From a virus, in IMG/VR virus record IMGVR_UViG_3300009181_000124, positions 1-46,081 of that record: 46,081 nt of DNA. One strand, written 5' to 3'. The notes beneath the pieces are model-generated. The model saw only the letters and a list, made by a program, of their open reading frames with translations, was not told the origin of the DNA and did not search any database. Each line of letters opens with the position of its first letter. Within the stretch, counting starts at the first letter, position 1. Below, one piece after another: positions 2,180 to 26,779 of the stretch. The translations under genes were made by a program, and so were the position numbers.

Positions 2180-2389
2180 CTATAAATATTGTTCTTCTTC
2201 AACTAATTGAGCTTCTTCAATTTTCTCCACAAAATAGTATATTCCGTTTTTCTTCAATACAGCATCAGCATAAATGTATTCCTTATACTCCTGTACCATG
2301 TCTTCTTTTATATATGTTTCTTTAATGGTGCGTTTGATGAAGTATAAACTGTCTTCCCAATTTACAACTTGTTTGACTATTGTGAACAT
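2180..2389 (-). CDS. Hypothetical protein, 69 residues
   Basis: Unrecognised acidic protein (MFTIVKQVVNWEDSLYF ... EEAQLVEEEQYL) with no clear motif, membrane segment or Cys cluster. Its ATG overlaps the stop codon of the sliding-clamp gene, so the two are translationally coupled. A class II motif overlaps its stop codon and serves the next small gene. The coupling to the clamp hints at a replication-linked or clamp-related role, but the protein itself does not show this. Confidence 0.65.
   Translation of the reverse strand: MFTIVKQVVNWEDSLYFIKRTIKETYIKEDMVQEYKEYIYADAVLKKNGIYYFVEKIEEAQLVEEEQYL
2181..2188 (-). promoter_or_regulatory. Class II (late-type) motif before 41-residue gene
   Basis: The sense sequence AATATTTATAGTAAAAT lies about 15 nt before the ATG at 2165 and overlaps the stop codon of the preceding gene. 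Confidence 0.4.
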
Positions 2390-3123
2390 TACATGTCCTT
2401 TTTAACAATGTAATATGTACTTTTTACATTGTTTGTTTTAAATTCTAGCTTCAACAGTCCTTCTAAGTTAACGTATATTTTAGCTGACTCATAGTCTTTG
2501 TTACAAGAAAGTATTTCTTTAAATAAGTCTGAGTTAAATGCTAGTTCAAAGATTTTACTAGTATTTTTACTAATGTTTAAATAGTAAGACACTTTATTTG
2601 CATATTCAATGTCTCCACCAAATGTAAGTTCTAATTGTGGATCACCATCTAAACTTTGACATGGATTGATAACTACTGTAGTACTTTCTGCTAATGCTGA
2701 TTTAGCTTTAATTAAAGCAACAACTACTTCAGATTCTAAGTCAACTTCAATGTCCCATTCTTCAGAACCATTGTATGCTCCTGTTTTTGAAACTGTTAAA
2801 ATGTCTGCTAATGAGTAGTTGACTGTGAATTGTTGATCAGCAATGATTAGTTTAGTAAAAATTTTGTGACTTTTAATAAAGGTCAACATTACTTCACCAG
2901 CCGTAATTCCAATTAGTTTAAGTAACTGTGAAGTGTTACTAATGCCAAATGATGAGTTTTCTAAATTAAAGTTATTGTGACTTACTTCACCAATCATTTC
3001 TCGTGATGGTGATGTGAATTTAATGTTTAAATTATTGTCTTTGACGTCCCACTTAACAGACTCAATTAAGCCGTTAAGATAGTATTTGTTTATAACATTT
3101 TGTAATTCTACTTTGTTTATCAC
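2389..3123 (-). CDS. DNA polymerase sliding clamp (T4 gp45-like)
   Basis: Probable processivity clamp for the family B polymerase; in T4-like phages it forms a trimeric ring and also activates late transcription. At 244 residues it is close to T4 gp45 (228). The sequence is divergent. The call rests on overall pattern: repeated beta-rich clamp-like stretches (KLIIADQQFTVNYSLADIL, AKIYVNLEGLLKLEFKTNN) and the final strand STYYIVKKDM, which resembles the end of gp45-type clamps. The rest of the T4-like replisome is present, and the polymerase C-terminal half ends in a clamp-binding-like FFTF. It has its own class I promoter at 3136-3167. A structure prediction would confirm the fold. Confidence 0.7.
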   Translation of the reverse strand: MINKVELQNVINKYYLNGLIESVKWDVKDNNLNIKFTSPSREMIGEVSHNNFNLENSSFGISNTSQLLKLIGITAGEVMLTFIKSHKIFTKLIIADQQFTVNYSLADILTVSKTGAYNGSEEWDIEVDLESEVVVALIKAKSALAESTTVVINPCQSLDGDPQLELTFGGDIEYANKVSYYLNISKNTSKIFELAFNSDLFKEILSCNKDYESAKIYVNLEGLLKLEFKTNNVKSTYYIVKKDM

Positions 3124-5938: not shown

Positions 5939-6028
5939 TTTTATATTTTGTTTTTGATTAATATTTGTTGCCACTTCTATTTTTAAAATCTATTCTATTT
6001 CAACTACCCACTACACGGGCTTACGCAC

Positions 6029-6112
6029 TCTGCTAACATGGTATTACCGCAACCCCGAAAACTTTTCAGGTTGCCTATCGGGGCGGACGGCAATACCTGA
6101 AACGTTATCTCA
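6029..6112. repeat. attC-like site 7 (84 bp), distal end of array
   Basis: The plus strand runs from about TCTGCTAAC (6029-6037) to GTTATCTCA (6104-6112). The arms TGGTATTACCG/CGGCAATACC and CCCCGA/TCGGGG pair. Unlike sites 1-5, the outer core does not match the start of its cassette, so this cassette may have been rearranged. Confidence 0.65.
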
Positions 6113-6151
6113 GACTTTCCCCTGGCAGATTAATAAAGTTAAACATTTCTT

Positions 6152-6179: not shown

Positions 6180-6211
6180 TAAATATATGTCTATAAGTCT
6201 TGGAAGCCTAA
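6180..6211 (-). promoter_or_regulatory. Class I promoter facing the cassette array
   Basis: The sense strand reads TTAGGCTT-N16-TATATTTA. The TTAG includes the stop codon of the polymerase C-terminal gene. It would now drive the remnant ORF and then the cassette genes, giving them phage transcription. Confidence 0.8.
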
Positions 6212-7092
6212 TTAAATGTAAAAAATTTCTTAACGTTTGGATTGAGTGTTGGAAATTCCCATTTTAAGTCTTCATAAAGTGACTTTAACTTGTTAGCCAA
6301 CAATGAGTCAAATATTTCTTCAACATCAATGTACTGTTTAACAAATTCTTCAATTTCAGGAGGTGTTTTAGCATTTGGAACGCCTATTGTTTCTATTCCA
6401 AATGGATTTTGTTTTAAGTTGATAACAAACAGTTTGTCGCCTTCAATTATGCTCTCGTATTTTTTGTCTAGCTTTTTAAACTTTAACAAGTCATTATAAC
6501 GAACTGCTGCTTTTGTGTTGAATGGTGCTTTCAATTTAAATCTACTGAATATTTCTCCTGCAGTTGACCTTATTTGATAGTTAGATATTTGTTTTACTCC
6601 TGTAGGCTTTCCTAGTTCTTTTGGGTCTAGTGTTTTAAGTGACTTGTAAAAGTCAACAATGTTGTTGTCTATTTCTTCTTTTGGTTTGCCAAACAACACA
6701 TCTTTAATTAAGTTTTCACCAAACTTTTTAAACAGTTTGTTCATGTTGGACTTCATTAGTTCAAGTCCTTTCATGTCTAGTTCTTCAACAGGCACACCTT
6801 CCTTGTTGGTAACATACATGGCATATCTTCTTTTACCAGTAGTTAAAACCCCGGCACAAATTACTTCTTGTTTTAATTGGAAGTAATGTGTGTCGGGGCT
6901 GATGTTGAATAAACGCTTACTTAAACTGTTTAAGTTGTCGTTTGACTCATTTTGAATTTGGGTGGCTAATTTTAATATAATCTCATTTTTGTTGGCATCG
7001 TTGATTTCAATGCCTTGAGACTTCATGTATTTTATAATGTGACCTAAACAAATGTATAAACTATCAGTGTCACTTATAATAATATTTTGCAT
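6208..7092 (-). CDS. Family B DNA polymerase, C-terminal half (split gene)
   Basis: The 294-residue protein begins MQNIIISDTDSLYICLG: polymerase motif C (DTDS) stands at residues 8-11, followed by palm and thumb segments with the KRRY block (about 87-90), NPFG and VKQYIDVEEIFDSL. It ends VKKFFTFN, a clamp-binding-like peptide comparable to the C-terminus of T4 gp43. It lacks the exonuclease domain and motifs A and B, which are in the separate gene at 13044-11296. Together the two are 876 residues, near T4 gp43 (898). The halves presumably assemble into one enzyme. The gene follows a 69-residue ORF with 1 nt between them, behind its own class I promoter at 7325-7356. Confidence 0.93.
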   Translation of the reverse strand: MQNIIISDTDSLYICLGHIIKYMKSQGIEINDANKNEIILKLATQIQNESNDNLNSLSKRLFNISPDTHYFQLKQEVICAGVLTTGKRRYAMYVTNKEGVPVEELDMKGLELMKSNMNKLFKKFGENLIKDVLFGKPKEEIDNNIVDFYKSLKTLDPKELGKPTGVKQISNYQIRSTAGEIFSRFKLKAPFNTKAAVRYNDLLKFKKLDKKYESIIEGDKLFVINLKQNPFGIETIGVPNAKTPPEIEEFVKQYIDVEEIFDSLLANKLKSLYEDLKWEFPTLNPNVKKFFTFN

Positions 7093-7093
7093 A

Positions 7094-7303
7094 TTATGAA
7101 TTTGCCTTTACCTGCATGTATGGTTGAGGAATTGTTAATGTAACGTTGTATTTTTTGCTCCATTCTTCTGCAAAACTATTGAATTCTGCAAGAGCTGCTT
7201 GTTCACGTTTAACCATATCATCAATGACCGCTTGTTGTGCCTTTTTTAAGTCAATGGTTTCTTCTTCTGTTGCTGCTTTAATTGGTTTTTTAGGTTGTAA
7301 CAT
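7094..7303 (-). CDS. Hypothetical protein, 69 residues, cotranscribed with polymerase C half
   Basis: Lysine- and glutamate-rich helical protein (DLKKAQQAVIDDMVKREQAA, then FAEEWSKKYNVTLTIPQPYM), unrecognised. The YNVTLTIPQPYMQV ending recurs in small phage proteins. Its stop codon is 1 nt from the polymerase C-half ATG, so the two are translationally linked. Class I promoter 7325-7356 lies directly upstream. A role in polymerase assembly is possible from the linkage only. Confidence 0.7.
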   Translation of the reverse strand: MLQPKKPIKAATEEETIDLKKAQQAVIDDMVKREQAALAEFNSFAEEWSKKYNVTLTIPQPYMQVKANS

Positions 7304-7324
7304 ATTTTTTGTTTTATTTTATTT

Positions 7325-7356
7325 TAAATATAAAAAAGAATATTTAACTTTCCAAA
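7325..7356 (-). promoter_or_regulatory. Class I promoter for polymerase C half
   Basis: The sense strand reads TTTGGAAA-N16-TATATTTAAAA, with the same 16-nt gap as the other class I promoters. It gives the detached polymerase half its own start. Confidence 0.7.
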
Positions 7357-7393
7357 TTTACTTCATTAAAAGTAACATTTTTCTTGTAATTCT

Positions 7394-7645
7394 TTAACTA
7401 TTGGTGTAAGTTTCTTGAATGTAAACTAATGCCGCGTCAGTAGAGTATTGATCCATTAACAGTGGATCAAAAGTTGCAATAGTAACTTCGAATGTTGTGT
7501 TGTCAACTTGTTCAAATTTTCCTACTGGTGCATTTTCAATTTTTACAACAATCTGTTGGTTGAAAATGTATTTTGTTTTGTTTTCATTTAATTGTGGAAT
7601 ATTATTACTTAAGTAAGTTCCTGCTAATTGATAAGTTAATGCCAT
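7394..7645 (-). CDS. Hypothetical, probably structural, protein, 83 residues
   Basis: Beta-rich small protein (MALTYQLAGTYLSNNIPQLN, then ALVYIQETYTNS) with no named family. It directly follows the large tail-fibre gene and a weak class II-like AT motif, so I infer a virion or fibre-associated protein. It has no signal peptide or membrane segment. It is the last gene of the structural module that lies between the two DNA polymerase halves. Confidence 0.65.
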   Translation of the reverse strand: MALTYQLAGTYLSNNIPQLNENKTKYIFNQQIVVKIENAPVGKFEQVDNTTFEVTIATFDPLLMDQYSTDAALVYIQETYTNS

Positions 7646-7694
7646 GTTACAAAGTTATTATTTATTTTGTTATATATTATTTATTTTATTATAT

Positions 7695-10600
7695 TTAGCA
7701 TGATACCCATGCTGCTCCGTTGTAAAATACTCTAACTGTAACAGCCCCGCCACCAACTAAGGCGGCATTATATGTTGGCAAAGTTGCATCGGTTACATAA
7801 GCGGTATCACCTACTGACCCTGCGGGTAAAGTAGCAACTGTGTAACCCATTAATTTTATCGGAACCGCTGCCGTAACCCTTAATTCTCCAATAGTAAATC
7901 GCGTTGTTGCTGTTTGCAATGTCGTTCCACTTGCTAATGTAGTTCCTGTTTGAAAAATAATATTTGGAGGAGTGGCGTTTCCTGTGCTGCGTGTAGCAAA
8001 TGTAAGTGATGCCCCTGCGTTATTTGAACCTGAACCTCCACAAGCATTAAGAACAGTCGAATATGCTGCTGTGTGTGTTACTCCGTTAAAGTACCAATTT
8101 GAAATATAACCATTAGCACTATTTGAACCCAAAACACCCTGATTAGCTGCTGTTGCTGTTGCTAAAAAGCCTATACAAACGGTTGCATTAAATGTACTAT
8201 ATGCTCCACCACCTAATGATACAGCAAAATTTCCAGAAGCATATGTAACATTATATTGACAATTGCCAATAGCTGTCGAATTTACTCCTGCAACGTTTGT
8301 TCCAGAAGATAAATTTCCACCAATTGCCAATCCATAACCGCTGGCAGTGGCTTGTCCCATAGCTATTGAACCATAAGTTCCTATTGTAGCTGATGGCCCT
8401 ATTGAAAAACCATTTTCTGCTACACCAAGTCTTAAAAATTTAGCTCCACCTAAATTTAAACCATTTGTTGTTGCTGTTCCACCTGACGCTCCAATATTTA
8501 AAAGGTTATTTGTCTTATCCCAAGTTAAATCTGCATCCTCGCCATATACACCACTGTCATTAAATGGTATTCTTGTTGAAGTTCCGCTTGTTATGGTGGT
8601 TGTGCCTACTGTTATTCCTGATGAAGCCGTTGCCCAAGATAAAGTAGCCACTCCTGCTGCGGGTGCTGTACTCTGTAATACCTGCCCTGCCGTTGGTGCT
8701 GTTGTTGGTAAATCGTATGTTATAGAAGCGGACGGATTTGTTCCTCTGAATGTTTGGATGAAAGCATTGGTAGCGTTTCTTAACACTAAAGTTCCTGCCA
8801 CGCTACTTGCTACTCCTGATGTTACTGCGCCTGTTAAAACCAAACTTGTTCCTGTTGCTACTCCTACATATGATGATGTTGAAGCAAAAGAACTACTTAC
8901 TGCGTTTAAGACATATGATGCACTTGTTGCGTTTTGAACATATGATGCGCTTACTGCGTTTAAGACATATGATGCACTTACTGCATTAGATGCTGTACCA
9001 ATTAATGTTCCTGTAAATGAACCACTAAATGAACCGGTATTACTTAAAAATTGATCTACTCTATTTGCTGTTACAATAAGTGATGGTATGCCTGGTACTA
9101 CTCCGAACCCTGCTTCAGCATGTAATCTTACATTTGCATCCGGTGAATACCACATTAATTGATAATAATCATTTGCTGCTGAGTTAACAAAGAAATTCCA
9201 TGCTGCAACATAGTGAGCTCCATTTCCTACAAGTTGTATAGAAGTAGCTGAGTCACTAATATCAGTTCCATTTTTTCTTAGCCAAATCCATATCTCATCT
9301 GTTCCACTATCTGTTTTATCTACTTGAGCAGAAAATTGAATATCATATACTCCAGCATTTTCTGTTTTAATATATGTATTAAATGGATTTGTTGAACCTG
9401 AAATAGATACTCCGTTTGTAATATCTGTTATATTAAGAGACATTGAACGAGCGGTACCTGCTATATTAGTTTGTATTTGAGTAGAATAAAAGCTACCATA
9501 TGAACCAGTTGCCGTATTAAATCCTCCTCCACCTGATGTTGAAGAAATAGTAACTTGACCTAAACCATTTGTTGGTGATAATGTTACATTTGGTCCTGCT
9601 AATAATTGAGTTACACCACCGTTTAAAGCAAATGAGCTACTTACAGCTTGTAATACATATGATGCTGTTAAAGCGTATGAAGATGTACCTGCAAATTGGG
9701 AAGCATTAGATCCAGTGTATAAATTGAATGATGCTGTTGTTACTAATGACCCTGTGTCTACTGATCCTCCTCCATTTAGTGAATATGATGCTGTTAAAGC
9801 GTATGATGCACTTGTTGATGTGGAAGCATAACTCGCTGTTCCAAATAAAGATCCAGTAAATGATGGGGCTGTTACTCCTCCAGGCATTGAAAGTGTACCA
9901 TCATTATTAAAATTCCAGGTGTGTGAAGCTGAGGTTTGAATATAAGCACCAAAGTCATCTACCCAAATAAGTGATTGTGTGTTGCTTGATGCTAATTCTA
10001 CATATTCTCCGGGTGCAGCTATTATATCAATGCCTCCTCCATAAAATAAATTATTTACAAGACTACCTCCTTTTAAATTTATAGAACCAGTCACTTCTAC
10101 ATTATTAATAAAAGCAACTTTATCTGGATATACCAACAATCCATTTTCAGCATTGTATCCATTTACTTGTAAGCCTATACTTTGTGTTGAGTCGTTGTGA
10201 AAAACAAATCTACCATCATCCCAACCAAAGTAACTCATTATAGAGTTTGTTGTTGAGAATGTGTCATTGTAAAAACGAGATGTCCAAGGGTATGCATTAT
10301 TAGCATGAATTTCTTGAATTGCTAGGTTTGGACTACCAACCGTTGGAGTTAACATTATGTAACCATTATCTCCAATTAAAGATTGATTGCCTAACACACC
10401 TACTGAACCTGTAAATTGAGCTGGTCCTATGTTTATAAAAGTGTTAGAACCACTTACAATAAATGAACCTGTTATTTCAATACTACTTGTAGTATTCCAA
10501 ATGTTTCCACCTACATAAGTAAAAGGAGCAGAAGATCCGGATGGGCCTTGAGAGCCAGATGGGCCTTGAGAGCCAGATGGACCAGGAGGACCTTGAGAGC

Positions 10601-10808
10601 CAGATGGGCCTTGAGAGCCAGATGGACCAGGAGGACCTTGAGAGCCTGATGGACCTTGAGAGCCTGATGGACCTTGAGAGCCAGATGGACCTTGAGAGCC
10701 AGATGGACCAGGAGAACCTTGAGGACCTAATGAATTAACTGTCACTACACTAGTAGATGGATTTAATATAGTAACAGTATTAGCGTCTGAGATAATATTT
10801 ACTGACAT
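7695..10808 (-). CDS. Tail fibre protein with collagen-like and YadA-head-like repeats, 1037 residues
   Basis: Large probable host-recognition fibre. Residues about 28-92 are Gly-X-Y collagen-like repeats (GPSGSQGPSGSQGPPGPSG). A beta-rich shaft follows with many short repeats of the ASYALTASY / SASYVLNAV kind (about 330-400 and 610-680). The C-terminal third contains trimeric-autotransporter-head-like segments (GSIAMGQATASGYGLAIGG, NSTAIGN) and ends in a compact VGDTAYVTDATLPTYN ... AAWVSC domain. Such proteins are normally homotrimers. The C-terminal third is visibly GC-richer than the rest, which suggests domain exchange. The gene starts 4 nt after the preceding virion gene ends and lies between the two DNA polymerase genes. 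Confidence 0.88.
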   Translation of the reverse strand: MSVNIISDANTVTILNPSTSVVTVNSLGPQGSPGPSGSQGPSGSQGPSGSQGPSGSQGPPGPSGSQGPSGSQGPPGPSGSQGPSGSQGPSGSSAPFTYVGGNIWNTTSSIEITGSFIVSGSNTFINIGPAQFTGSVGVLGNQSLIGDNGYIMLTPTVGSPNLAIQEIHANNAYPWTSRFYNDTFSTTNSIMSYFGWDDGRFVFHNDSTQSIGLQVNGYNAENGLLVYPDKVAFINNVEVTGSINLKGGSLVNNLFYGGGIDIIAAPGEYVELASSNTQSLIWVDDFGAYIQTSASHTWNFNNDGTLSMPGGVTAPSFTGSLFGTASYASTSTSASYALTASYSLNGGGSVDTGSLVTTASFNLYTGSNASQFAGTSSYALTASYVLQAVSSSFALNGGVTQLLAGPNVTLSPTNGLGQVTISSTSGGGGFNTATGSYGSFYSTQIQTNIAGTARSMSLNITDITNGVSISGSTNPFNTYIKTENAGVYDIQFSAQVDKTDSGTDEIWIWLRKNGTDISDSATSIQLVGNGAHYVAAWNFFVNSAANDYYQLMWYSPDANVRLHAEAGFGVVPGIPSLIVTANRVDQFLSNTGSFSGSFTGTLIGTASNAVSASYVLNAVSASYVQNATSASYVLNAVSSSFASTSSYVGVATGTSLVLTGAVTSGVASSVAGTLVLRNATNAFIQTFRGTNPSASITYDLPTTAPTAGQVLQSTAPAAGVATLSWATASSGITVGTTTITSGTSTRIPFNDSGVYGEDADLTWDKTNNLLNIGASGGTATTNGLNLGGAKFLRLGVAENGFSIGPSATIGTYGSIAMGQATASGYGLAIGGNLSSGTNVAGVNSTAIGNCQYNVTYASGNFAVSLGGGAYSTFNATVCIGFLATATAANQGVLGSNSANGYISNWYFNGVTHTAAYSTVLNACGGSGSNNAGASLTFATRSTGNATPPNIIFQTGTTLASGTTLQTATTRFTIGELRVTAAVPIKLMGYTVATLPAGSVGDTAYVTDATLPTYNAALVGGGAVTVRVFYNGAAWVSC
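10530..10727 (-). repeat. Collagen-like Gly-X-Y coding repeats
   Basis: A short unit encoding GSQGPSGSQGP is repeated almost identically about ten times within the fibre gene. Such DNA can expand or contract by slippage. Confidence 0.85.
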
Positions 10809-10812
10809 TGTA

Positions 10813-11211
10813 TTATGTTGTTACTTGATTACTTAATCTAATTTGGCCTTCTAATAATCTTATAGTGTAAGGACAATCACTACCTGAGTACAATTCTAAA
10901 TCATAGTAAGCTGTAGGAAATGTAAGTAAAGATGAAGTACAAGAGGATATGTATATTCCAATGGAACCACTTGTTGGAGGTGTAATTCCATTACTTCCAC
11001 TAAAATTTAAACCTGTTCCATCTGAATTTAAAGAACTAGACAAGGTAATGTACACAGTGCGAGTAACATCATATGCATAATTAGACGCAATTTGCATTCG
11101 ACCTGAGTAGTTAGTTAAGTCTACTGGGTTGTTTAGTGAGTCTAGATATTGTATTTCAAAATTAGTTGTTGCTCCTTGTTCTATAGTAAAAGAATATCTA
11201 CCTGCTGCCAT
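10813..11211 (-). CDS. Virion structural protein, 132 residues
   Basis: The start MAAGRYSFTIEQGATTNFEI with IQYLDSLNNPVDLTNYSGRM, and the end IRLLEGQIRLSNQVT, form a pattern I know from virion proteins of T4-like marine phages (IEQGATT-x-FEIxYxD ... LEGxxxLSxEVT). It is probably a small beta-sandwich fibre- or head-associated protein; the precise location is unknown. A class II motif (11223-11230) precedes it, and the tail fibre gene follows 4 nt downstream, so the two form a late unit. Confidence 0.75.
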   Translation of the reverse strand: MAAGRYSFTIEQGATTNFEIQYLDSLNNPVDLTNYSGRMQIASNYAYDVTRTVYITLSSSLNSDGTGLNFSGSNGITPPTSGSIGIYISSCTSSLLTFPTAYYDLELYSGSDCPYTIRLLEGQIRLSNQVTT

Positions 11212-11222
11212 TAATTTTTTAT

Positions 11223-11230
11223 TATAAATA
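11223..11230 (-). promoter_or_regulatory. Class II (late-type) motif before structural module
   Basis: The sense sequence CATATTTATAATAAAAAATTA precedes the ATG at 11211. It begins the late unit that lies between the two polymerase halves. Confidence 0.5.
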
Positions 11231-11295
11231 TGTATTCTTTATAAAAAAATTAAACTTTTACTACTATAAATCCATTCCTATTTAATGTAAATATT

Positions 11296-13044
11296 TTATA
11301 AATTGAACTTAGCTATCAATTCTTCTTTACTTAACTGTAAATACTCATTGTTTATTTTATTGTTTACAAAGTCAATAGTAGACATAGTTAAACGTTGTCC
11401 TGAGTTTGTAATGGCTGAACTACAAATCAAGTGACCATCAGTGTATCTCCATCCATTTTTAGCAAAAGTACCATACATTGCGTTTTGTAAAATTTTAAAA
11501 CTATGTTGAAATAAGTCGTACAATTTATAGTTAGTCCAATCTTCTTCCTTACCTGCTTTCTTTTTTAGTGCTCTATAATGTTCTCTCTTTTTAAACCATC
11601 CTTCTAATATTTTAGCTACAATACTTTGTTCATCTGTTCTAAACATAGCACCTGATGCTGCAATAGTAAAGTTGTTTTTTTCAATTAAGTCAATTAAGTC
11701 TTTTAATTTTATTTGGGCTGACTTAAGAGTGTAATTTTCTTTGTTTAACTTTTCAATTTCTACTATTTCATTTGGATCTCTTTCTTTAAGCTTTTCTAAT
11801 GATTGGTTTTGCTCATAAGTAACATCGTGATGTACTTTAATTCTACCTACTAATGTTTCAATGGCTAAGTTAAGAGACTTAATAATACTAGGATACAGTG
11901 ACGTAAAGTCTAAGTCTATGACGTCAAAGTACAAGCCAGATATTGGTTCAAGTAAATATCCGCCAGCATATGATATATTATCCGCTTTTAAAGACGAATT
12001 ATGAGTAGTTGGCTTATTTGGTGAAACAATGCCTTCTCGTTTTAAATACTTTAAAATTGCGCCTTCATTCATAACTGTGTTCCAATATATGCTTTCATAA
12101 GGAATGTTACAGATGTGGGATATCATGATGGTCAGTTCAATGAACTTTAACTTGTCTTCAAGTTTTTCTAAAATGTCAACGTCACGTAAGTTATAGTCAA
12201 TAAAAGTATTTAAGTCGTTTTTAAACAATGTGTTTAAATTTCCCTCATATTCTACCTTACCTAAGTCAACGTATTTTAAGCCAATGTCTCCTAGTTTATA
12301 TGATGGTTCTTCCTTCATAATGTATTTTTTATGAAGTAACATATAGTCTAAGTGATTGACTCCTCCTATTCTAACTTGTAAAGTACCTGCAAATTCTCTA
12401 AAGTTGATTTTTCCAATAGGAGACATTCTCAATATTTCGTCGTCGCCTAAAGTGTGTTTAATTCTGAAGTATAAGTAAGGCATGTCAAAGTAAGCACTGT
12501 TCCATCCCACTACTATTGTTGGGTCTAATTCCTCCCACTTGTCTAAGAATTTTTTGATGAGTTCCTTTTCAGAAACACATGGTACAATGTGTTTACCATT
12601 TTCATTTGATTCTTGAATTTCCTTATTTTTGTCTACAACAAAACACATTTTAGTCTTTGTAGTCATGTCTATTAAAGCAATTGAAGTTATAGGCATAGGA
12701 GCAGCCTTGATGTATTCAGGTGTTAAGGCACCTCCCATTTCAATTTCAATGTCTAAGTATACAATGTTGTGAAATGAAGGTACCACGTCATCATACTTAT
12801 AGTACAATTCTCGTAAAATGAGAAGTTCCTTGTTGATGTCTTTTTCTAAGAGATTAGTGTCGTCTTTACTGAATTTTTTAGTTGGAATTGCAAATCCTCC
12901 AGTTAAGATAGGTTGAGCACCTTCTTGCCATTCATCAACTCGTTTCCAATAAGTGGGTTGATATTGAAATTTAGACCATCCATTTTTATCATCTCGAAGA
13001 TAATATGTGTAGTCCTCAAATGAATAGTGAAGTGCTTGATACAT
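11296..13044 (-). CDS. Family B DNA polymerase, N-terminal half: exonuclease plus motifs A and B
   Basis: The 582-residue protein holds the 3'-5' exonuclease motifs (Exo I VYLDIEIE near 96, Exo II VVGWNSAYFD near 180, Exo III YNLRDVDIL near 285), polymerase motif A (DLDFTSLYPSI near 378) and motif B (KILQNAMYGTF near 520). It stops after the helix SGQRLTMSTIDFVNN with a tail ending AKFNL. Motif C is absent and is found at the start of the gene at 7092. T4 gp43 carries all of these in one chain. The gene follows dUTPase by 16 nt behind class I promoter 13524-13555. Split gene 43 forms are known in some Aeromonas T4-like phages. Confidence 0.95.
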   Translation of the reverse strand: MYQALHYSFEDYTYYLRDDKNGWSKFQYQPTYWKRVDEWQEGAQPILTGGFAIPTKKFSKDDTNLLEKDINKELLILRELYYKYDDVVPSFHNIVYLDIEIEMGGALTPEYIKAAPMPITSIALIDMTTKTKMCFVVDKNKEIQESNENGKHIVPCVSEKELIKKFLDKWEELDPTIVVGWNSAYFDMPYLYFRIKHTLGDDEILRMSPIGKINFREFAGTLQVRIGGVNHLDYMLLHKKYIMKEEPSYKLGDIGLKYVDLGKVEYEGNLNTLFKNDLNTFIDYNLRDVDILEKLEDKLKFIELTIMISHICNIPYESIYWNTVMNEGAILKYLKREGIVSPNKPTTHNSSLKADNISYAGGYLLEPISGLYFDVIDLDFTSLYPSIIKSLNLAIETLVGRIKVHHDVTYEQNQSLEKLKERDPNEIVEIEKLNKENYTLKSAQIKLKDLIDLIEKNNFTIAASGAMFRTDEQSIVAKILEGWFKKREHYRALKKKAGKEEDWTNYKLYDLFQHSFKILQNAMYGTFAKNGWRYTDGHLICSSAITNSGQRLTMSTIDFVNNKINNEYLQLSKEELIAKFNL

Positions 13045-13060
13045 AACTTTTATTTAACAT

Positions 13061-13519
13061 TTACTTTCCTGATGAGCCAAAACCACCGTCTCCTCTTTGT
13101 TGAGATTTTTTAAATGTTTCCCAAATGAATCCTTCTAGTTCTACAATTTCATATTGTGGTTTTTCTATAACTGCTATTTGAGCGTAACGTTCACCTTTTT
13201 CAATAGTCACGTCAACATTTCCAACATTGTATATTTTTACTCCTAAGTCGCCTGTGTATCCTGCGTCTACTGTTCCATAATGGGGTATTAAAGCATGTTT
13301 GAAACCTTTAGAACTGCGTAATTGAATTTGCATCCAATAATTTTTTTGTTGATCTATTGTTAGGTTTAAACCATTTGGCACCACAGCTGATGATTTAGCT
13401 GGTATTATTGTTGTTTCGGTGCATGTTATGTCAAAACAAGCGCTTGTGTTGTTGTAAGCGATTTGAGGAATAACTGCGTCTGGATGAGTTTTATGTGCGT
13501 AAATTGTAATTTTTTTCAT
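13061..13519 (-). CDS. dut: dUTPase
   Basis: Hydrolyses dUTP to dUMP and pyrophosphate, keeping uracil out of DNA and feeding dTMP synthesis. All five motifs of the trimeric family are visible in 152 residues: SACFDI (26-31), RSSKG (68-72), GTVDAGYTGD (82-91, with the catalytic Asp and the substrate Tyr), KGERYAQ (108-114) and the C-terminal lid RGDGGFGSSGK (142-152). Motif 1 has Cys-Phe where Gly-(Tyr/Phe/Ala) is usual, a mild deviation. It is cotranscribed with the polymerase N-terminal half. Confidence 0.96.
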   Translation of the reverse strand: MKKITIYAHKTHPDAVIPQIAYNNTSACFDITCTETTIIPAKSSAVVPNGLNLTIDQQKNYWMQIQLRSSKGFKHALIPHYGTVDAGYTGDLGVKIYNVGNVDVTIEKGERYAQIAVIEKPQYEIVELEGFIWETFKKSQQRGDGGFGSSGK

Positions 13520-14004: not shown

Positions 14005-14904
14005 TTAATACCCTGGGTAATAGCTTACTAAATGCCATACTGTTCCAATAGACATAAATGTAAGAACTTCTCTATCACTTAATGGATTAACATAAGGACC
14101 TCCACCAAACTGGACAGTATTACCTGTTGCGGCTGTTATTGTCCAATAAGTGGCGCTTGTATTTTGAATGTTTTTTATAATTAAAATTCTTCCATCAGTT
14201 GTTCCAGATACTAAAGTTGGTAGTGTTAAAGTTGCTGTATTTAGTCCCGCTCCAGTCATATAAACAATATAATCAGTTGCAGCTAAAGTTGTGGCAGTTG
14301 TAGTAACATATGTTGTAACTTTACCAGCTATATTTCCATTTACCTTTAGTGTTGAGCCTGGTGTAGTTATTCCTATACCTACATTAGTACCATTATCAAA
14401 TGTTGTTCCTATTCCTATTGTAGTAGCACTTGTCCAACGAACAAGATAGTTAGTAGTACCTCCACTTAATGTAGCTGCAGCGCCTGTAGGACCTGTAGCA
14501 CCTACAGAACCATTTGATCCTGCTGTTCCCGTTGCTCCAGTAGCTCCTACTGCACCATTGGTTCCATTTATACCATTTGATCCTGCAGTACCTGTAGCTC
14601 CATTTATACCTGTAGCTCCTGCAGTACCTGTAGCTCCAGTAGGTCCTGTTGCTCCTATAGGTCCAGCAGTCCATGTTAATGCACCTGCACCACTATTATA
14701 AAGGTATCCTGCACTATGTGCAACAGGCCAACTATAACCTGATACATTATTTATTTTTATTGGATTACCTGATGAATTGATTTGGAATTTACCTTCAACA
14801 TCAAATAATGATGTTGGAGTAAAGCCTGAAGATGTACTAATGCCTACTTGAGCATAAGTAACCATACTAAATAAAGAGAATAGTAATACTAGAAGATTTT
14901 TCAT
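14005..14904 (-). CDS. Secreted collagen-like protein with signal peptide, 299 residues
   Basis: An N-terminal Sec signal (MKNLLVLLFSLFSMVTYAQ) is followed by a beta-rich region, then a Gly-X-Y collagen-like segment (GATGPTGATGTAGATG and similar, about 80-143). The C-terminal domain contains VGIGITTPGSTLKVNGN, a pattern common in Bacteroidota secreted and fibre proteins. A signal peptide is unusual for a virion protein, so export to the host periplasm or surface is likely. The ATG overlaps the stop of the T9SS-cargo gene (ATGA), showing tight coupling. It may alter the host surface, or it may be a host-derived gene. Confidence 0.75.
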   Translation of the reverse strand: MKNLLVLLFSLFSMVTYAQVGISTSSGFTPTSLFDVEGKFQINSSGNPIKINNVSGYSWPVAHSAGYLYNSGAGALTWTAGPIGATGPTGATGTAGATGINGATGTAGSNGINGTNGAVGATGATGTAGSNGSVGATGPTGAAATLSGGTTNYLVRWTSATTIGIGTTFDNGTNVGIGITTPGSTLKVNGNIAGKVTTYVTTTATTLAATDYIVYMTGAGLNTATLTLPTLVSGTTDGRILIIKNIQNTSATYWTITAATGNTVQFGGGPYVNPLSDREVLTFMSIGTVWHLVSYYPGY

Positions 14905-16073
14905 TGTTTTATAAATTTAAAGGTGTATTTATTTGTTTCGTTTTCCATTCTAAAGTAATAAGTTCCATTAGCTAAATTAGTAACATCAAACTTTGTTTTA
15001 TTACTTAAATCATCAAAAACTAATTTTCCATTAACATCAAATATTGTGAAATGATATTTAGAAGAATGATTTACATTAAATACTCCTTCGTTTGGGTTAG
15101 GATATAAAACTATGGTTTTTATTTCATTACAACCTACTATAATATCACTGTATTCAAATTCATCATTATTATCTACTTGTTTTAACCTATAATATTGATA
15201 TGTGTTTTCTGTTTGATATGAATAATAAACTAAGGAGTTTGAGTTCCCTTCGCCTGAGATAGTATCTATATCAGTAAAAGTACTAGCATTATCACTTCCT
15301 TGAACAATAAAGTATTTGTTATTTGTTTCAGATGCAGTTCCCCACATTATTAAACCCACACAGTTTATTTTAAAATAAACTAATTCAATTGGTAAAGCAT
15401 TACCACCGTCTACAGCAGTCCATGTTTCATAATAATCCTGTACGTTGGCTAAGTTAATGATTATTGTATTAAGTCCAGTATTAGAGTAAGGAGAATAAAG
15501 CCAGTCACCCCATCTGTCAGCCACATCGTTATAACGTTGCATCGTTAAGTTTGACTCAGTGATTGTGTTCCCGACTAAGTCAAGGTCAGCATAAGTAAAT
15601 GTTACAGTAGACTTAGGCTCTGCAACAGGATAACCATTAAATTTAATTTGCCAAAATCTGTCAATAACACTGATAGAGTTATCAGCATGTGCATCGTTGG
15701 TTACAAAATTAACTAGAGATGGATAAGGAGTATTGCTGTTGGTTGTTTCATAAGTATTTAGTTCAATGTTTGTTCCTGGAGAAGTAGAAGTTACATTCAA
15801 CAATAAAGGTATTCTTGTTCCATTAGAAGCAACATATGGAATAGTATATGTTCCTAATGTTGAACCGGTTACTAACCATTTTATTTTTGCTGTTTCATTT
15901 TGACAGTAAATTCCTCCACTTGTTCCTATGTCTCTTAGTCCAGTTGGATCATTTTTAGTTAAAACTAAGTATGTATTTGCTGAAATGTAAACATATGAAT
16001 CTTTAATAACCATTTGTGAAAATGACAAAGTAAAGTAAAAAAATAATATTGTAAAAATTATAGTTTTTTTCAT
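14901..16073 (-). CDS. Secreted protein with type IX secretion C-terminal sorting domain, 390 residues
   Basis: The start MKKTIIFTILFFYFTLSFSQ is a Sec signal peptide. The body is beta-rich. The region LPIELVYFKINC ... MWGTASETNNKYFIVQGSDN ... YYRLKQVDNNDEFEYSDI is the block that in Bacteroidota proteins precedes a sorting domain. The last 75 or so residues (IVLYPNPNEGVFNV, FTIFDVNGKLVFDD, LANGTYYFRM) form a type A T9SS sorting domain. Such proteins cross the outer membrane through the T9SS and are attached to or released from the cell surface. It is cotranscribed with the collagen-like protein and follows the 86-residue gene by 6 nt. Role unknown; surface modification or exclusion of other phages is an inference. 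Confidence 0.88.
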   Translation of the reverse strand: MKKTIIFTILFFYFTLSFSQMVIKDSYVYISANTYLVLTKNDPTGLRDIGTSGGIYCQNETAKIKWLVTGSTLGTYTIPYVASNGTRIPLLLNVTSTSPGTNIELNTYETTNSNTPYPSLVNFVTNDAHADNSISVIDRFWQIKFNGYPVAEPKSTVTFTYADLDLVGNTITESNLTMQRYNDVADRWGDWLYSPYSNTGLNTIIINLANVQDYYETWTAVDGGNALPIELVYFKINCVGLIMWGTASETNNKYFIVQGSDNASTFTDIDTISGEGNSNSLVYYSYQTENTYQYYRLKQVDNNDEFEYSDIIVGCNEIKTIVLYPNPNEGVFNVNHSSKYHFTIFDVNGKLVFDDLSNKTKFDVTNLANGTYYFRMENETNKYTFKFIKQ

Positions 16074-16359: not shown

Positions 16360-16998
16360 CTAAAATTCAGAACCGTTCTTCATAATTGCTTGTAAAAATT
16401 CTTCTCTGATTAAGTTATTTGATTCCATAAATACACCGCTGAATTTGTTAGTAGTCATTGTTGAATCATGTTTAATACCTCTACTTGAGCAACATGTATG
16501 TTTACATGAGATTGATACTGCTACTGATAGGCAATCCATTTTTTCTGAAATGTAGTTGTGGACTTGTTGGGTTAATGATTCTTGCATTTGTGGTCTTCTA
16601 GAAAACCATTCTACAATTCTATTTAGTTTTGACAAACCAATAACATTTTCTTGTGGAACATAAGCTACAGTAGCATAACCTGTAAACGCTAGATTGTGAT
16701 GTGCACACATACTTGTTACTTCAATACCACTTTGTATTACTAAACCATCGTATTTTTCATCGTTTGGAAACACTGTAATGTTTGGTTCGTCTGTTACTGA
16801 TCCTATAATAAGGTCATTTATAAATGATTTCGCAACTCTTTTAGGAGTATCAATAGTTTGTCTATCTGCTTCGTAATCAAAACCTAAGGCATTTAAAAAT
16901 TTACCATAGTGTTTTGCTGCTTCATTAATCATATTATCTTTTTCCTTTTCAGAACGAGACATACTACCATTTGATTTTTTTAATAGTTCAATTTTCAT
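16360..16998 (-). CDS. folE: GTP cyclohydrolase I
   Basis: Converts GTP to 7,8-dihydroneopterin triphosphate, the first step of folate and of 7-deazaguanine synthesis. In 212 residues the zinc ligands and active site are intact: MCAHH (Cys98, His101), the block SKLNRIVEWFSRRPQMQE (123-140) and CKHTCCSSRG (Cys169). With QueD, QueE, QueC and a DpdA-like protein in the same window, it most likely feeds preQ0 synthesis for DNA modification. The ATG overlaps the stop of an upstream homing endonuclease gene (ATGA), so that gene lies between queE and folE in one transcription unit. Confidence 0.95.
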   Translation of the reverse strand: MKIELLKKSNGSMSRSEKEKDNMINEAAKHYGKFLNALGFDYEADRQTIDTPKRVAKSFINDLIIGSVTDEPNITVFPNDEKYDGLVIQSGIEVTSMCAHHNLAFTGYATVAYVPQENVIGLSKLNRIVEWFSRRPQMQESLTQQVHNYISEKMDCLSVAVSISCKHTCCSSRGIKHDSTMTTNKFSGVFMESNNLIREEFLQAIMKNGSEF

Positions 16999-17642
16999 AT
17001 TTGTTTGTTTTTATAATAGTTTTTGTTTATATATTTATAATTACTTTTTGGATTTTTTAATAGTAAAAACATTTTTCTTTTGGAAATTTTTTCATTAATC
17101 ATGCATTTTTTTATAGAATTATATATTTCCCCACTTACAACATTTATAATACTATTACCTGTTTTAGGTCCCGATCCTATTAGTTTATTTCCTTTACCAC
17201 ATCCAGCACCTGGTTTGGGTTTACCTTTTTGTTTTAGATCGGGTTTACCTTTGCGTTTACTTGGGATACCTGTTTTAGATATACTTAAATTCAAACAATG
17301 TTCTTTACTTTTTGCCTTTCCTTTTAATGAATTACTAATTTTGTTTCTTGTATTTTTACTACAACTGCCTCTACCATTCCCTAATCTTAGATTCAATCCA
17401 TTATTTAATACATCATAATGATTTCCCCAATATATTTCACGTTCATTTAAATTACATTTGCTACATTCTTCAATAATTTCAAATTGGTGATTGGTAATGC
17501 CATGTTTTTTAAATGAATTATATAATTTAACTTGTCTTTTATTATTGAGATTATTATATTTTCCAAAACGTTCTTCTATATTGACAGATTGTCCAATGTA
17601 TATTTTTCCTGTTGGGTTTGTTATTTTATATATTCCTACCAT
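16995..17642 (-). CDS. Free-standing GIY-YIG homing endonuclease
   Basis: Residues 1-90 form a canonical GIY-YIG domain: VGIYKITNPTGKIYIGQS, then NIEERFGKY and NEREIYW with the metal-binding Glu. The middle has NUMOD3-like repeats (RNKISNSLKGKAKSKEHCLN, SKTGIPSKRKGKP), and a lysine-rich DNA-binding tail follows. It is placed between queE and folE and overlaps the folE start by 4 nt. It is closely similar in design to the endonuclease at 26180-26779, which suggests both spread from a common source. A TTGACA-N15-TATATTTA stretch and a TATTTATT motif precede the start. Confidence 0.92.
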   Translation of the reverse strand: MVGIYKITNPTGKIYIGQSVNIEERFGKYNNLNNKRQVKLYNSFKKHGITNHQFEIIEECSKCNLNEREIYWGNHYDVLNNGLNLRLGNGRGSCSKNTRNKISNSLKGKAKSKEHCLNLSISKTGIPSKRKGKPDLKQKGKPKPGAGCGKGNKLIGSGPKTGNSIINVVSGEIYNSIKKCMINEKISKRKMFLLLKNPKSNYKYINKNYYKNKQI

Positions 17643-17700: not shown

Positions 17701-18546
17701 TTATACATTTAATGTTTTATTCCATGCGGCAATATGTAATCTTGTCATACCTCTAAATTTATATTTCTTTGCCATTTCTAATGTAAATCTAGTGCGCTCT
17801 TCAAAATTCTTTACATCATCCAACCCAGGCATACAAACTACATTTGTAAGCGGTATTTTAAATGGTTCTACGAAGTCTTTAAATAATTCTTTGACATCGT
17901 CTTCAGTTGAAATAACAAACTTAAATTGATAGTTATTATGTTCCATAATACGTTTAATCGCATCTGGATTAATACGTTGTTTTTCTGTCATACCTGAGTT
18001 TGATAATTTGGGTGAACAGTTGATTTGATTAATCAATAAAAACAATTCATCTCCTATATATTGTGTACCATTTGTTTCTATTTCATTAAAAGGTGTCCAT
18101 TCATGAAATGAAGTTCCATACCATTCTACATTATGCCAATGTCCAAAAAAATGTTTTATTGCTTCTTGATGTTTAGGTAATGTTGGTTCTCCACCTGTCC
18201 AAATGATGTGAACATCACCATTTCTAATATATTCATAGATATCTTGTTCTTTCCATTGATCAATTAAGTATTGAAAGTCTTTATCTTCACCTCTCCACAA
18301 CCATTGAGACGTTGAGTCACAAGTCCAAGATGCTTTACCTTCTAATTCTAAGTCACCTTTGAACACTTCACCATCTTCTAGTGATTTTTCCTTTAATAAT
18401 TTGTTTGTGAATGCTCTTGACATACCACAGTTTAAATTACATAAACCTAAACGAACGAAGTATGATAGGACCCCTGATGATATTCCTTCTCCTTGGCAAG
18501 AAAAAAAGTCGCTGCTTATTAATAATTTATCTGATTTTATTGACAT
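17701..18546 (-). CDS. queE: 7-carboxy-7-deazaguanine synthase QueE (radical SAM)
   Basis: Radical SAM enzyme that rearranges 6-carboxytetrahydropterin to 7-carboxy-7-deazaguanine. The N-terminus has the substrate-binding FFSCQGEGISSG and the radical SAM cysteines Cys36 and Cys40 (RLGLCNLNCG). The third cluster Cys is Cys76 (SWTCDS), displaced by a 35-residue insertion. The SAM-binding IIWTGGEPTLP and the EIETNGTQ block follow. The usual short CxxxCxxC is therefore stretched, as seen in some QueE subfamilies. A 45-residue ORF overlaps its start by 10 nt, and class I promoter 18946-18977 lies upstream of the unit. Confidence 0.93.
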   Translation of the reverse strand: MSIKSDKLLISSDFFSCQGEGISSGVLSYFVRLGLCNLNCGMSRAFTNKLLKEKSLEDGEVFKGDLELEGKASWTCDSTSQWLWRGEDKDFQYLIDQWKEQDIYEYIRNGDVHIIWTGGEPTLPKHQEAIKHFFGHWHNVEWYGTSFHEWTPFNEIETNGTQYIGDELFLLINQINCSPKLSNSGMTEKQRINPDAIKRIMEHNNYQFKFVISTEDDVKELFKDFVEPFKIPLTNVVCMPGLDDVKNFEERTRFTLEMAKKYKFRGMTRLHIAAWNKTLNV

Positions 18547-21423: not shown

Positions 21424-22371
21424 CTATAGAATTTCAAATTTTTCTCCTGTAAATTCTTCTTCTATTCTAATAGCATACTCTTTAACAAAATCCCAAGATA
21501 CTAATGTTCCATCTTCTTCAGCATATTGTGATGGATCTTCTAATCCTAATTTGGTAAAACTAATTATACGTTCAATACTAGCACCTGATTTGTAATCACT
21601 GTACCATACTCCTATTCCTGGAGTAGATTCTGTTAATCCTAATAATTTTGTTTTTTCTTCATCTTTAACAAATATAGGAATATAACTAGTATTAGTACGT
21701 TTATAAATTTCTTTATAATCCAATCCTAATTTTTCACAGCATTCAATTCCATCTTTTAATACTCCAGTTTTATCAGTAATATTATATGGGGCATAATAAT
21801 CTACTTTTTCAGAATCCCAATTACCTATTTTAAATGCATGTTCAAGAGCAATTTTAAATTCTTCTGAACAATCTGGGTATATTCCGCTTTGTTTTTTATT
21901 ATCAAAATCACCCATGTGAGTTCCTAATGCTATTTTACATGATTCTCCTGTTTTTTTAGCAATAGATAATGCAACAGCATAAGTAATTGATGCAAATATA
22001 GCATTTCTGTTTGGAACTACAGTAGTTAAAGCATTTTCATGTGCATAATGTCCTGTTTTGAGTTCCATAGAATTATTATCAACTAATCCACTTACTAATA
22101 GTTGACTTAAACCATCTAATTTGATGATTTGATGATTTACTTTAGAATATACTTCACCAAATCCACCAGGTGCTCTGTCTGCAGGATAAATTCTAAGTAC
22201 ATTTGAGTTAATGTACTTTACTAAGTCAACTGCTCTTTCCAATTCTACTTTATGTTTTTGCCCATAGTCAAATGATAGAGCTGTCACTTGATATTCATTG
22301 GCTAGTAGGTGAAGTAACAGTGTACTTGAATCCATACCTCCACTTAAACTTAATACTGCTTGTTTTTTCAT
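21424..22371 (-). CDS. queC: QueC-like 7-cyano-7-deazaguanine synthase lacking the zinc cysteines
   Basis: QueC converts 7-carboxy-7-deazaguanine to preQ0 with ATP and ammonia. The PP-loop SGGMDSST (10-17), the ALSFDYGQKH block, VVPNRNAIFASI and ALGTHMGDF are all present. The C-terminal zinc site (Cys ... CGxCxxC) found in QueC enzymes is missing: the aligned region reads NTSYIP and WYSDYKSGASIERIISF, with Ser, Tyr and Gly in place of cysteines, while the following GLEDPSQY is kept. At 315 residues it is longer than typical QueC (about 230). It may be a phage subfamily with altered stability or reaction. It is in the same unit as the DpdA-like gene. Confidence 0.9.
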   Translation of the reverse strand: MKKQAVLSLSGGMDSSTLLLHLLANEYQVTALSFDYGQKHKVELERAVDLVKYINSNVLRIYPADRAPGGFGEVYSKVNHQIIKLDGLSQLLVSGLVDNNSMELKTGHYAHENALTTVVPNRNAIFASITYAVALSIAKKTGESCKIALGTHMGDFDNKKQSGIYPDCSEEFKIALEHAFKIGNWDSEKVDYYAPYNITDKTGVLKDGIECCEKLGLDYKEIYKRTNTSYIPIFVKDEEKTKLLGLTESTPGIGVWYSDYKSGASIERIISFTKLGLEDPSQYAEEDGTLVSWDFVKEYAIRIEEEFTGEKFEIL

Positions 22372-26151: not shown

Positions 26152-26183
26152 TAAATATATGTTAAAGAATCTTGGAAGCCTAA
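26152..26183 (-). promoter_or_regulatory. Class I promoter
   Basis: The sense strand reads TTAGGCTT-N16-TATATTTAAGT, 24 nt before the ATG at 26128, overlapping the stop codon of the homing endonuclease gene. Confidence 0.82.
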
Positions 26184-26779
26184 CCAATTATATCTTTATA
26201 AGAATTAATTTTATCAGTTATGTTTTTTATAGTACCCCAACTTACTCCATATTCTCTAGCTAAATCAGAACGAGTAAAATCTCCAGTTTTATACTTTATT
26301 CTTATTTCTTCCGCAATTTCTTTGTTACATAAATGTTGAGGGCCAATTTTTTTATTTGTTTTCCAATGTTCTTTTAAAGTTTCCCCAATCTTTTTTCCAT
26401 GATTTAATTTTTGACCAAAAGGTCCCCCACCTTTTTTAGACCAGGTATTTTTTCTCCCTTTTAATGCTTTACCTATTTTATCTTTTGTAGATTGAGCCAA
26501 ATGACCATTTCTCCCACCTAATCTTATATTTAATCCTTTTTCTACACTATCAAATTGATATATCCAATAAATTTCTTTTTCATATAATTGTTCTATTGAG
26601 CATTCTTCTATAAGTTCAAATTTATGATTAATCCAACCAAACTTAATCAAACTATTATATATTAATGATTGACCTTTAACTTTTAAATTTTTATATTCAT
26701 GTAATCTTCTTTCCCAATTAATAGTACATCCAATATAAATTTTTCCTTCAGGGTTTATTATTTTATAAATTCCAATCAT
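26180..26779 (-). CDS. Free-standing GIY-YIG homing endonuclease with C-terminal HTH
   Basis: N-terminal GIY-YIG domain: IGIYKIINPEGKIYIGCTIN, RRLHEYKNLK and YEKEIYW with the metal-binding Glu. NUMOD3-like repeats follow (KDKIGKALKGRKNTWSKKGG), and the C-terminus has a helix-turn-helix (FTRSDLAREYGVSWGTIKNI) likely used for DNA recognition. It lies between the ribonucleotide reductase gene and the next operon, a classic position for phage homing endonucleases that target nrd genes. A degenerate class I-like promoter precedes it at 26790-26821. Confidence 0.92.
   Translation of the reverse strand: MIGIYKIINPEGKIYIGCTINWERRLHEYKNLKVKGQSLIYNSLIKFGWINHKFELIEECSIEQLYEKEIYWIYQFDSVEKGLNIRLGGRNGHLAQSTKDKIGKALKGRKNTWSKKGGGPFGQKLNHGKKIGETLKEHWKTNKKIGPQHLCNKEIAEEIRIKYKTGDFTRSDLAREYGVSWGTIKNITDKINSYKDIIG

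Follow-up and report, generated by a model that had tools for sequence, protein, structure and literature searches.

A T4 gp43-type DNA polymerase encoded in two genes flanking a tail-fibre module, and the mosaic ancestry of its split allele

The closest described relative of the locus reported here is the split gene 43 of Aeromonas phages (Petrov, Ratnayaka and Karam 2010), known here through a review (PMC2988022) and AY303350. According to that review, gene 43 is split as 43A/43B in phages 25 and 44RR, a GIY-YIG endonuclease lies between 43A and 43B in phage 25, and the two halves of the Aeromonas phage protein co-purify and polymerise (PMC2988022). The review adds that whether an endonuclease made the split is hard to tell, since 44RR is split without one (PMC2988022). 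Other phage genes have been cut as well: nrdA of Aeh1 is split by mobE and its NrdA product is active, while a T4 topoisomerase gene is split by mobA (PMC2988022). In the Jug phages, DNA polymerase genes are reported to be split by intervening endonucleases (PMC12363816), and in MIJ3 the two ORFs of a family B polymerase flank an HNH endonuclease gene, the polymerase having a split intein (PMC6892783). Finally, the endonucleases of HEG-islands, which are replaced by other classes at one position, confer mobility on essential genes and virion operons (Barth et al. 2023, PMC10448857). Since most work on split essential genes of phages has dealt with single genomes or pairs, it has stayed open for gene 43 whether the endonuclease was the maker of the split or a later arrival.

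The window analysed here is a whole IMG/VR virus record of 46,081 bases, a linear fragment of a T4-like phage, in which a T4 gp43-type family B DNA polymerase is encoded by two minus-strand genes. The N-terminal subunit (582 residues; 11296..13044, minus strand) comprises the exonuclease, palm motif A, the fingers and motif B, and ends in a tail, NEYLQLSKEELIAKFNL, that is specific to split alleles. The C-terminal subunit (294 residues; 6208..7092, minus strand), whose protein starts as MQNIIISDTDS, comprises motif C (SDTDS), GKRRYA, the thumb and an FF-type C-terminus. Among family profiles, the N half matches DNA_pol_B_exo1 (E 4e-17) and DNA_pol_B (E 2e-26), and the C half matches divDNApol (3e-7), with DNA_pol_B at 1e-3, below the cut-off. 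The motifs could be read directly in both proteins: YLDIEIE, GWNSAYFDMPYLY and DYNLRDVDIL (exonuclease I-III), DLDFTSLYPSI (motif A) and KILQNAMYGTFA (motif B) in the N half, SDTDSLY (motif C, within the N-terminal stretch MQNIIISDTDSLY) and then GKRRYA in the C half. The catalytic motifs are all intact. The C half ends in NPNVKKFFTFN, and the pattern NPNV.KFF.F, which looks like a clamp-binding peptide, is kept among relatives. The best PDB relative of each half is RB69/T4 gp43, a relationship that, with exonuclease motifs I-III and motifs A, B and C, identifies the polymerase as gp43-type. The ORFs, their family matches and their motifs bear out the split gene that a first-pass annotation had put forward, and the 46,081-b fragment holds no third polymerase-B match beyond the N and C halves, and no full-length polymerase gene.

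Two scans of viral contigs, one per half, gathered ~70 informative loci from relatives (designated by L numbers below). In ~58 of them the polymerase is a single unbroken ORF of about 860 aa, and the unsplit junction reads ..VNDKINTEIKEEKQNICISDTDSLYIVL in the great majority. By contrast with these unsplit alleles, 11 other contigs of the main group, to which the window belongs, are split at the window's site (L003, L005, L011, L013, L017, L018, L019, L021, L022, L031 and L052); their N half ends in a NEYLQLSKEELI.KFNL-type tail, and their C half starts just before motif C. The split is shared with these relatives and is not peculiar to the window phage, whose tail-fibre case is one late stage. 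Two distant loci, L078 and L082 (~50% identity), are also split there, with a different tail; their split is perhaps of independent origin. When further split alleles were sought with the split-specific tail, only those already known were recovered.

In the window, the gap between the halves is filled by a 4.2-kb late module of four genes on the same strand. A virion-type gene of phrog_1084 (10813..11211, minus strand) and a 1037-residue tail-fibre gene with collagen-like repeats (7695..10808, minus strand) are followed by a small gene of no family (7394..7645, minus strand) and by a 69-residue gene (7094..7303, minus strand) that ends 1 nt before the C-half start and for which our search found no relatives. 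The structural module announced by the first-pass annotation is therefore indeed located between the halves. The phrog_1084 gene precedes the collagen-type fibre gene in relatives too, elsewhere in the genome. Since the pair lies ~45 kb from the polymerase in the unsplit relative IMGVR_UViG_3300011115_000874 (160.8-kb contig; L131, L145), the window phage has evidently taken the module into its polymerase locus. That locus is otherwise in place, as judged from the dUTPase gene directly upstream of the N half (13061..13519, minus strand), which is 98.7% identical to that of L081, where it likewise precedes the polymerase, there unsplit. On the other side, 3 kb downstream of the polymerase, the window has a conserved gene (2389..3123, minus strand) that closely follows the polymerase in L007, L008, L020, L003 and others.

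Two candidate promoters, recognised as consensus matches, accompany the module. The virion genes are preceded by an exact match to the late promoter-type motif TATTTATAATAAAA (11217..11230, minus strand), a class over-represented in the window, where 22 sites with at most 2 mismatches compare with 8.2 expected. An exact TTG-N20-TATATTTA site (7325..7355, minus strand), also of an over-represented class (31 against 7.0 expected, with at most 1 mismatch), lies upstream of the small gene at 7303-7094 and of the C half; because that gene ends 1 nt before the C half, the site would serve both genes. The promoter of its own that had been claimed for the C half thus has a candidate in this site.

The inserts in the 11 split main-group relatives, of 0.64-1.2 kb, are homing endonucleases or late genes. 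Related GIY-YIG endonucleases, 84-96% alike, sit in the gaps of L011 (phrog_314), L021 (where the frame is broken by a stop) and L022, while the gap of L013 contains an HNH-type endonuclease of phrog_559 and that of L052 an endonuclease-VII/HNH-like gene. Outside the main group, the L082 gap holds a GIY-YIG gene and the L078 gap a relative of it. The gaps of L003, L005, L017, L018 and L019 encode small proteins behind late-type motifs, several with recurrent leaders, and that of L031 a DUF6934-like protein, again behind a late-type motif. Where a main-group gap holds an endonuclease gene, that gene's end overlaps with the C-half start codon. Four other alleles, those of L003, L018, L019 and the window, instead have a TTG-N20-TATATTTA site upstream of the C half. 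There is no endonuclease gene in the window's own gap nor in those of six other split contigs (7/12 main-group split records, window included), which counts against the history proposed below in that homing by the present alleles is no more than putative.

The window retains a fossil of older cargo. At 11250..11276 (minus strand), it carries the 3' end of a cargo gene (..NGFIVVKV-stop) that lines up, over a 26-nt match, with the last codons of the L031 insert gene (..DGFIIVKI-stop). In addition, the end of the N half and the start of the spacer match L031 at 89% over 47 nt, reaching into the start of the L031 late motif, and the ~500 bases that L031 has between the two matching stretches are missing from the window. 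This remnant of an L031-like cargo gene after the N half indicates that the tail-fibre module most likely took the place of an earlier cargo in the window phage. It also bears on whether the module could be an assembly chimera, with a shorter true gap, since the spacer runs continuously from the N-half end through the fossil and the late promoter-type motif to the fibre module. Although the collagen repeats of the fibre gene can be misassembled and viral-contig searches found no second contig with the identical gene arrangement, such a chimera is improbable: the split ends are split-specific sequences, the genes are all on one strand, flanking synteny is kept, and the separate assemblies L018 and L019 have another split locus in common.

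The ancestry of the split alleles is mosaic. In the N-half tree, the sister of the window N half is unsplit L004 (91% identity), all the split rows are placed among unsplit ones, and as many changes are needed as there are splits; a single split clade is rejected on codons 1-540 (p-AU 1e-68). Likewise, codons 440-545 and 650-876 require 11 changes for 12 splits, and one clade is rejected for both (p-AU 2e-65 and 4e-64, respectively). For codons 586-650, the splits form one group that needs only 1 change (shuffled 11.1, 0/500), with a support for the single clade that is moderate (SH-aLRT 78) because the segment is short. DNA divergence between split alleles and their nearest unsplit relatives is 0.33-0.44 in codons 545-640 and 0.04-0.14 outside, with Fisher p values ranging from 1e-12 (window/L004) to 2e-51 (L011/L079). 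In the latter pair, the proteins are 99% identical on both sides of the divergent tract. Where examined, this tract is short and has the junction at its centre, flanking sequence having been co-converted with the split. Since the flanks resemble different unsplit relatives while codons 586-650 form one group, the mosaic points to one cassette that spread by gene conversion, and indicates that this cassette has moved into at least nine backbones.

Purifying selection is strong on both halves, with dN/dS values between split phages of 0.03-0.13 across N half, tract and C half. These values reject the notion that the polymerase is a decaying pseudogene in a genome replicated by another enzyme. 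That reading, to which the fragmentary nature of the record lends some room, is highly improbable in view also of the intact catalytic motifs and of the ~99% identity of some split phages to unsplit kin outside the tract. What the comparison with relatives shows is a maintained polymerase allele that has moved repeatedly between phages.

How the enzyme could tolerate the break is suggested by a structural model of unsplit L004, which is only moderately confident (pLDDT 69) and whose best Foldseek match is RB69 gp43 (E 1e-37). In this model, the break falls in a loop (residues 569-574) between the helix that follows motif B (536-568) and the motif C strand, a position at which it costs no catalytic aspartate. 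Modelled alone, the N half gives a weak model in which residues 524-565 are of low confidence; this may reflect the missing C half or a shallow alignment. By analogy with the active split gp43 and split NrdA of other phages (PMC2988022), the polymerase probably works as two separate chains. The alternative that the halves are rejoined into one protein by trans-splicing, through a split intein or a split intron, has a precedent in the split intein of the MIJ3 family B polymerase (PMC6892783). At this break, a split intein is ruled out by lack of room for its N and C parts, the N half having only ~15-17 extra residues and the C half 7 before DTDS. Nor did Rfam, at gathering or permissive thresholds, give any credible match, group I/II introns included, in the window or in nine split relatives. 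Moreover, the extra tail of the N half is terminated by a stop and is kept at the protein level among split alleles, while a start codon of its own opens the C half. Trans-splicing is therefore highly improbable.

Together, these findings make it quite likely, in our judgement, that this two-subunit gp43-type polymerase stems from a split of single origin that was made via a homing endonuclease, spread by conversion and was later re-filled by late genes. The two chains of the polymerase, an N subunit with the exonuclease and motifs A and B and a C subunit with motif C, the thumb and the clamp-binding-like tail, would be translated separately and would assemble noncovalently into an active enzyme. 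A single event in this phage group would have produced the split. Most likely, a free-standing homing endonuclease gene inserted itself and its end provided the C half with a start codon; such genes were probably the first carriers of the split allele. Cleavage of the unsplit allele by the endonuclease, followed by break-repair gene conversion, would then have brought the split allele, with ~100 flanking codons, into many unsplit relatives. Upon loss of the endonuclease, late genes would have occupied the gap and the C half would have gained its own host-type promoter. As the presumed last step in the window phage, the earlier cargo would have been mostly deleted and the tail-fibre module would have come in its place.

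A different route to the same distribution is that the split allele spread by ordinary homologous recombination and selection, acting either on cargo (fibre genes, for example) or on the split as such, the endonucleases having invaded later. This would suit the seven main-group records whose gap lacks an endonuclease, and the same doubt is on record for the Aeromonas phages because of 44RR (PMC2988022). We nevertheless regard ordinary recombination as rather unlikely, since a short, junction-centred tract is what break-induced repair acting at a single site would leave, endonucleases of different families are found in the one gap, and the C-half start codon overlaps with the endonuclease gene's end.

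Tentatively, and with less confidence than we place in the history favoured above, the split junction might be a mobile docking site, at which a conversion cassette installs a two-subunit polymerase in new phages and delivers late cargo of packaged-protein-type genes, here tail fibres. If so, receptor-binding genes would move together with a gene for replication. The locus also offers tail fibres a possible way of becoming tied to such a gene. Closely related split and unsplit alleles occur in this phage group, and the one site is seen at stages that bear an endonuclease, a broken endonuclease, late genes or tail fibres. How a gene in pieces originates, spreads and becomes domesticated can be traced and tested here. 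For gp43-type polymerases, the site further adds a new break point of natural origin, located in the palm.

In the open-access literature, we found neither a polymerase gene interrupted by structural genes nor the spread of a split polymerase allele by conversion described, an absence that is weak evidence in itself. The locus resembles the Aeromonas gene 43 in being a T4-type polymerase in two cistrons. The first-pass annotation had rightly mentioned splits of this kind, but when the window break was mapped against that of phage 25, the two sites proved to be different: in phage 25, the break is in the fingers, 43A (498 aa) stopping short of motif B and 43B having its start upstream of KILINSLYG, whereas in the window it is between motifs B and C. 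The window break is accordingly not the phage 25 split point. Furthermore, the Aeromonas split has no structural genes between its halves and no set of split and unsplit sisters showing transfer. The split Aeh1 nrdA and T4 topoisomerase genes are alike in that an essential phage gene was cut by a free-standing endonuclease, with function kept there, but the gene is a different one, and it is the window's gap that was re-used by virion genes. In MIJ3, the polymerase has intein halves, which are absent from the window polymerase. The Jug phages share endonuclease-split polymerase genes and predicted Bacteroides/Phocaeicola hosts; they are huge phages, and the passages on these genes describe no split sites, transfer or fibre module (PMC12363816). 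In HEG-islands, lastly, endonucleases bracket the cargo, whereas in the window the cargo lies inside the split gene and the endonuclease may be gone.

A clue to the host of this T4-like phage comes from a phage protein encoded at 14901-16073 (-), in which PF18962, the C-terminal sorting domain of type IX secretion, is matched at E 7e-14. This points to a Bacteroidota host, and the protein is perhaps exported via the host type IX secretion system. The window also encodes queuosine-type genes, folE (16360-16998), queE (17701-18546) and queC (21424-22371), all on the (-) strand, whose role possibly lies in modified DNA bases.

Three more homing endonuclease genes matching phrog_314 are found at 926-1630, 16995-17642 and 26180-26779 (all on the (-) strand), one of which sits between the folE-like and queE-like genes, while another adjoins ribonucleotide reductase.

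Directly past the polymerase C half, a GC-rich structured element lies at 5990-6140 (-), with a fold z of -3.4 and two possible, mutually exclusive pairings, UUUCAGGUAUUGCC/GGCAACCUGAAA or GGUAUUGCCG/CGGUAAUACC. No Rfam family corresponds to it, and a search of viral contigs for an exact copy found none.

Inside the gap between the polymerase halves of the split phage L003, an apparent copy of a polymerase-gene 3' end (..FPSLNPNIKKFFAF-stop; L003:1358-1420) precedes a late motif. It is possibly a scar left by recombination with another polymerase locus.

Small ORFs otherwise unlike each other share common N-terminal leaders, either 'MKKSELRQIIKEEISKVLNE' (9 among 80 loci) or 'M..EF.KMQKLAGLI.E' (17). 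They include L003:875, L005:9335, L015:15175, L017:9275, L018:1854, L031:6980 and L052:14249, among others, and several are preceded by late-type motifs. In T4, capsid-targeting sequences are cleaved by the prohead protease; both leaders terminate in (L/I)xE, as those T4 sequences do. The leaders are thus possible tags of packaged proteins, the set of which would vary.
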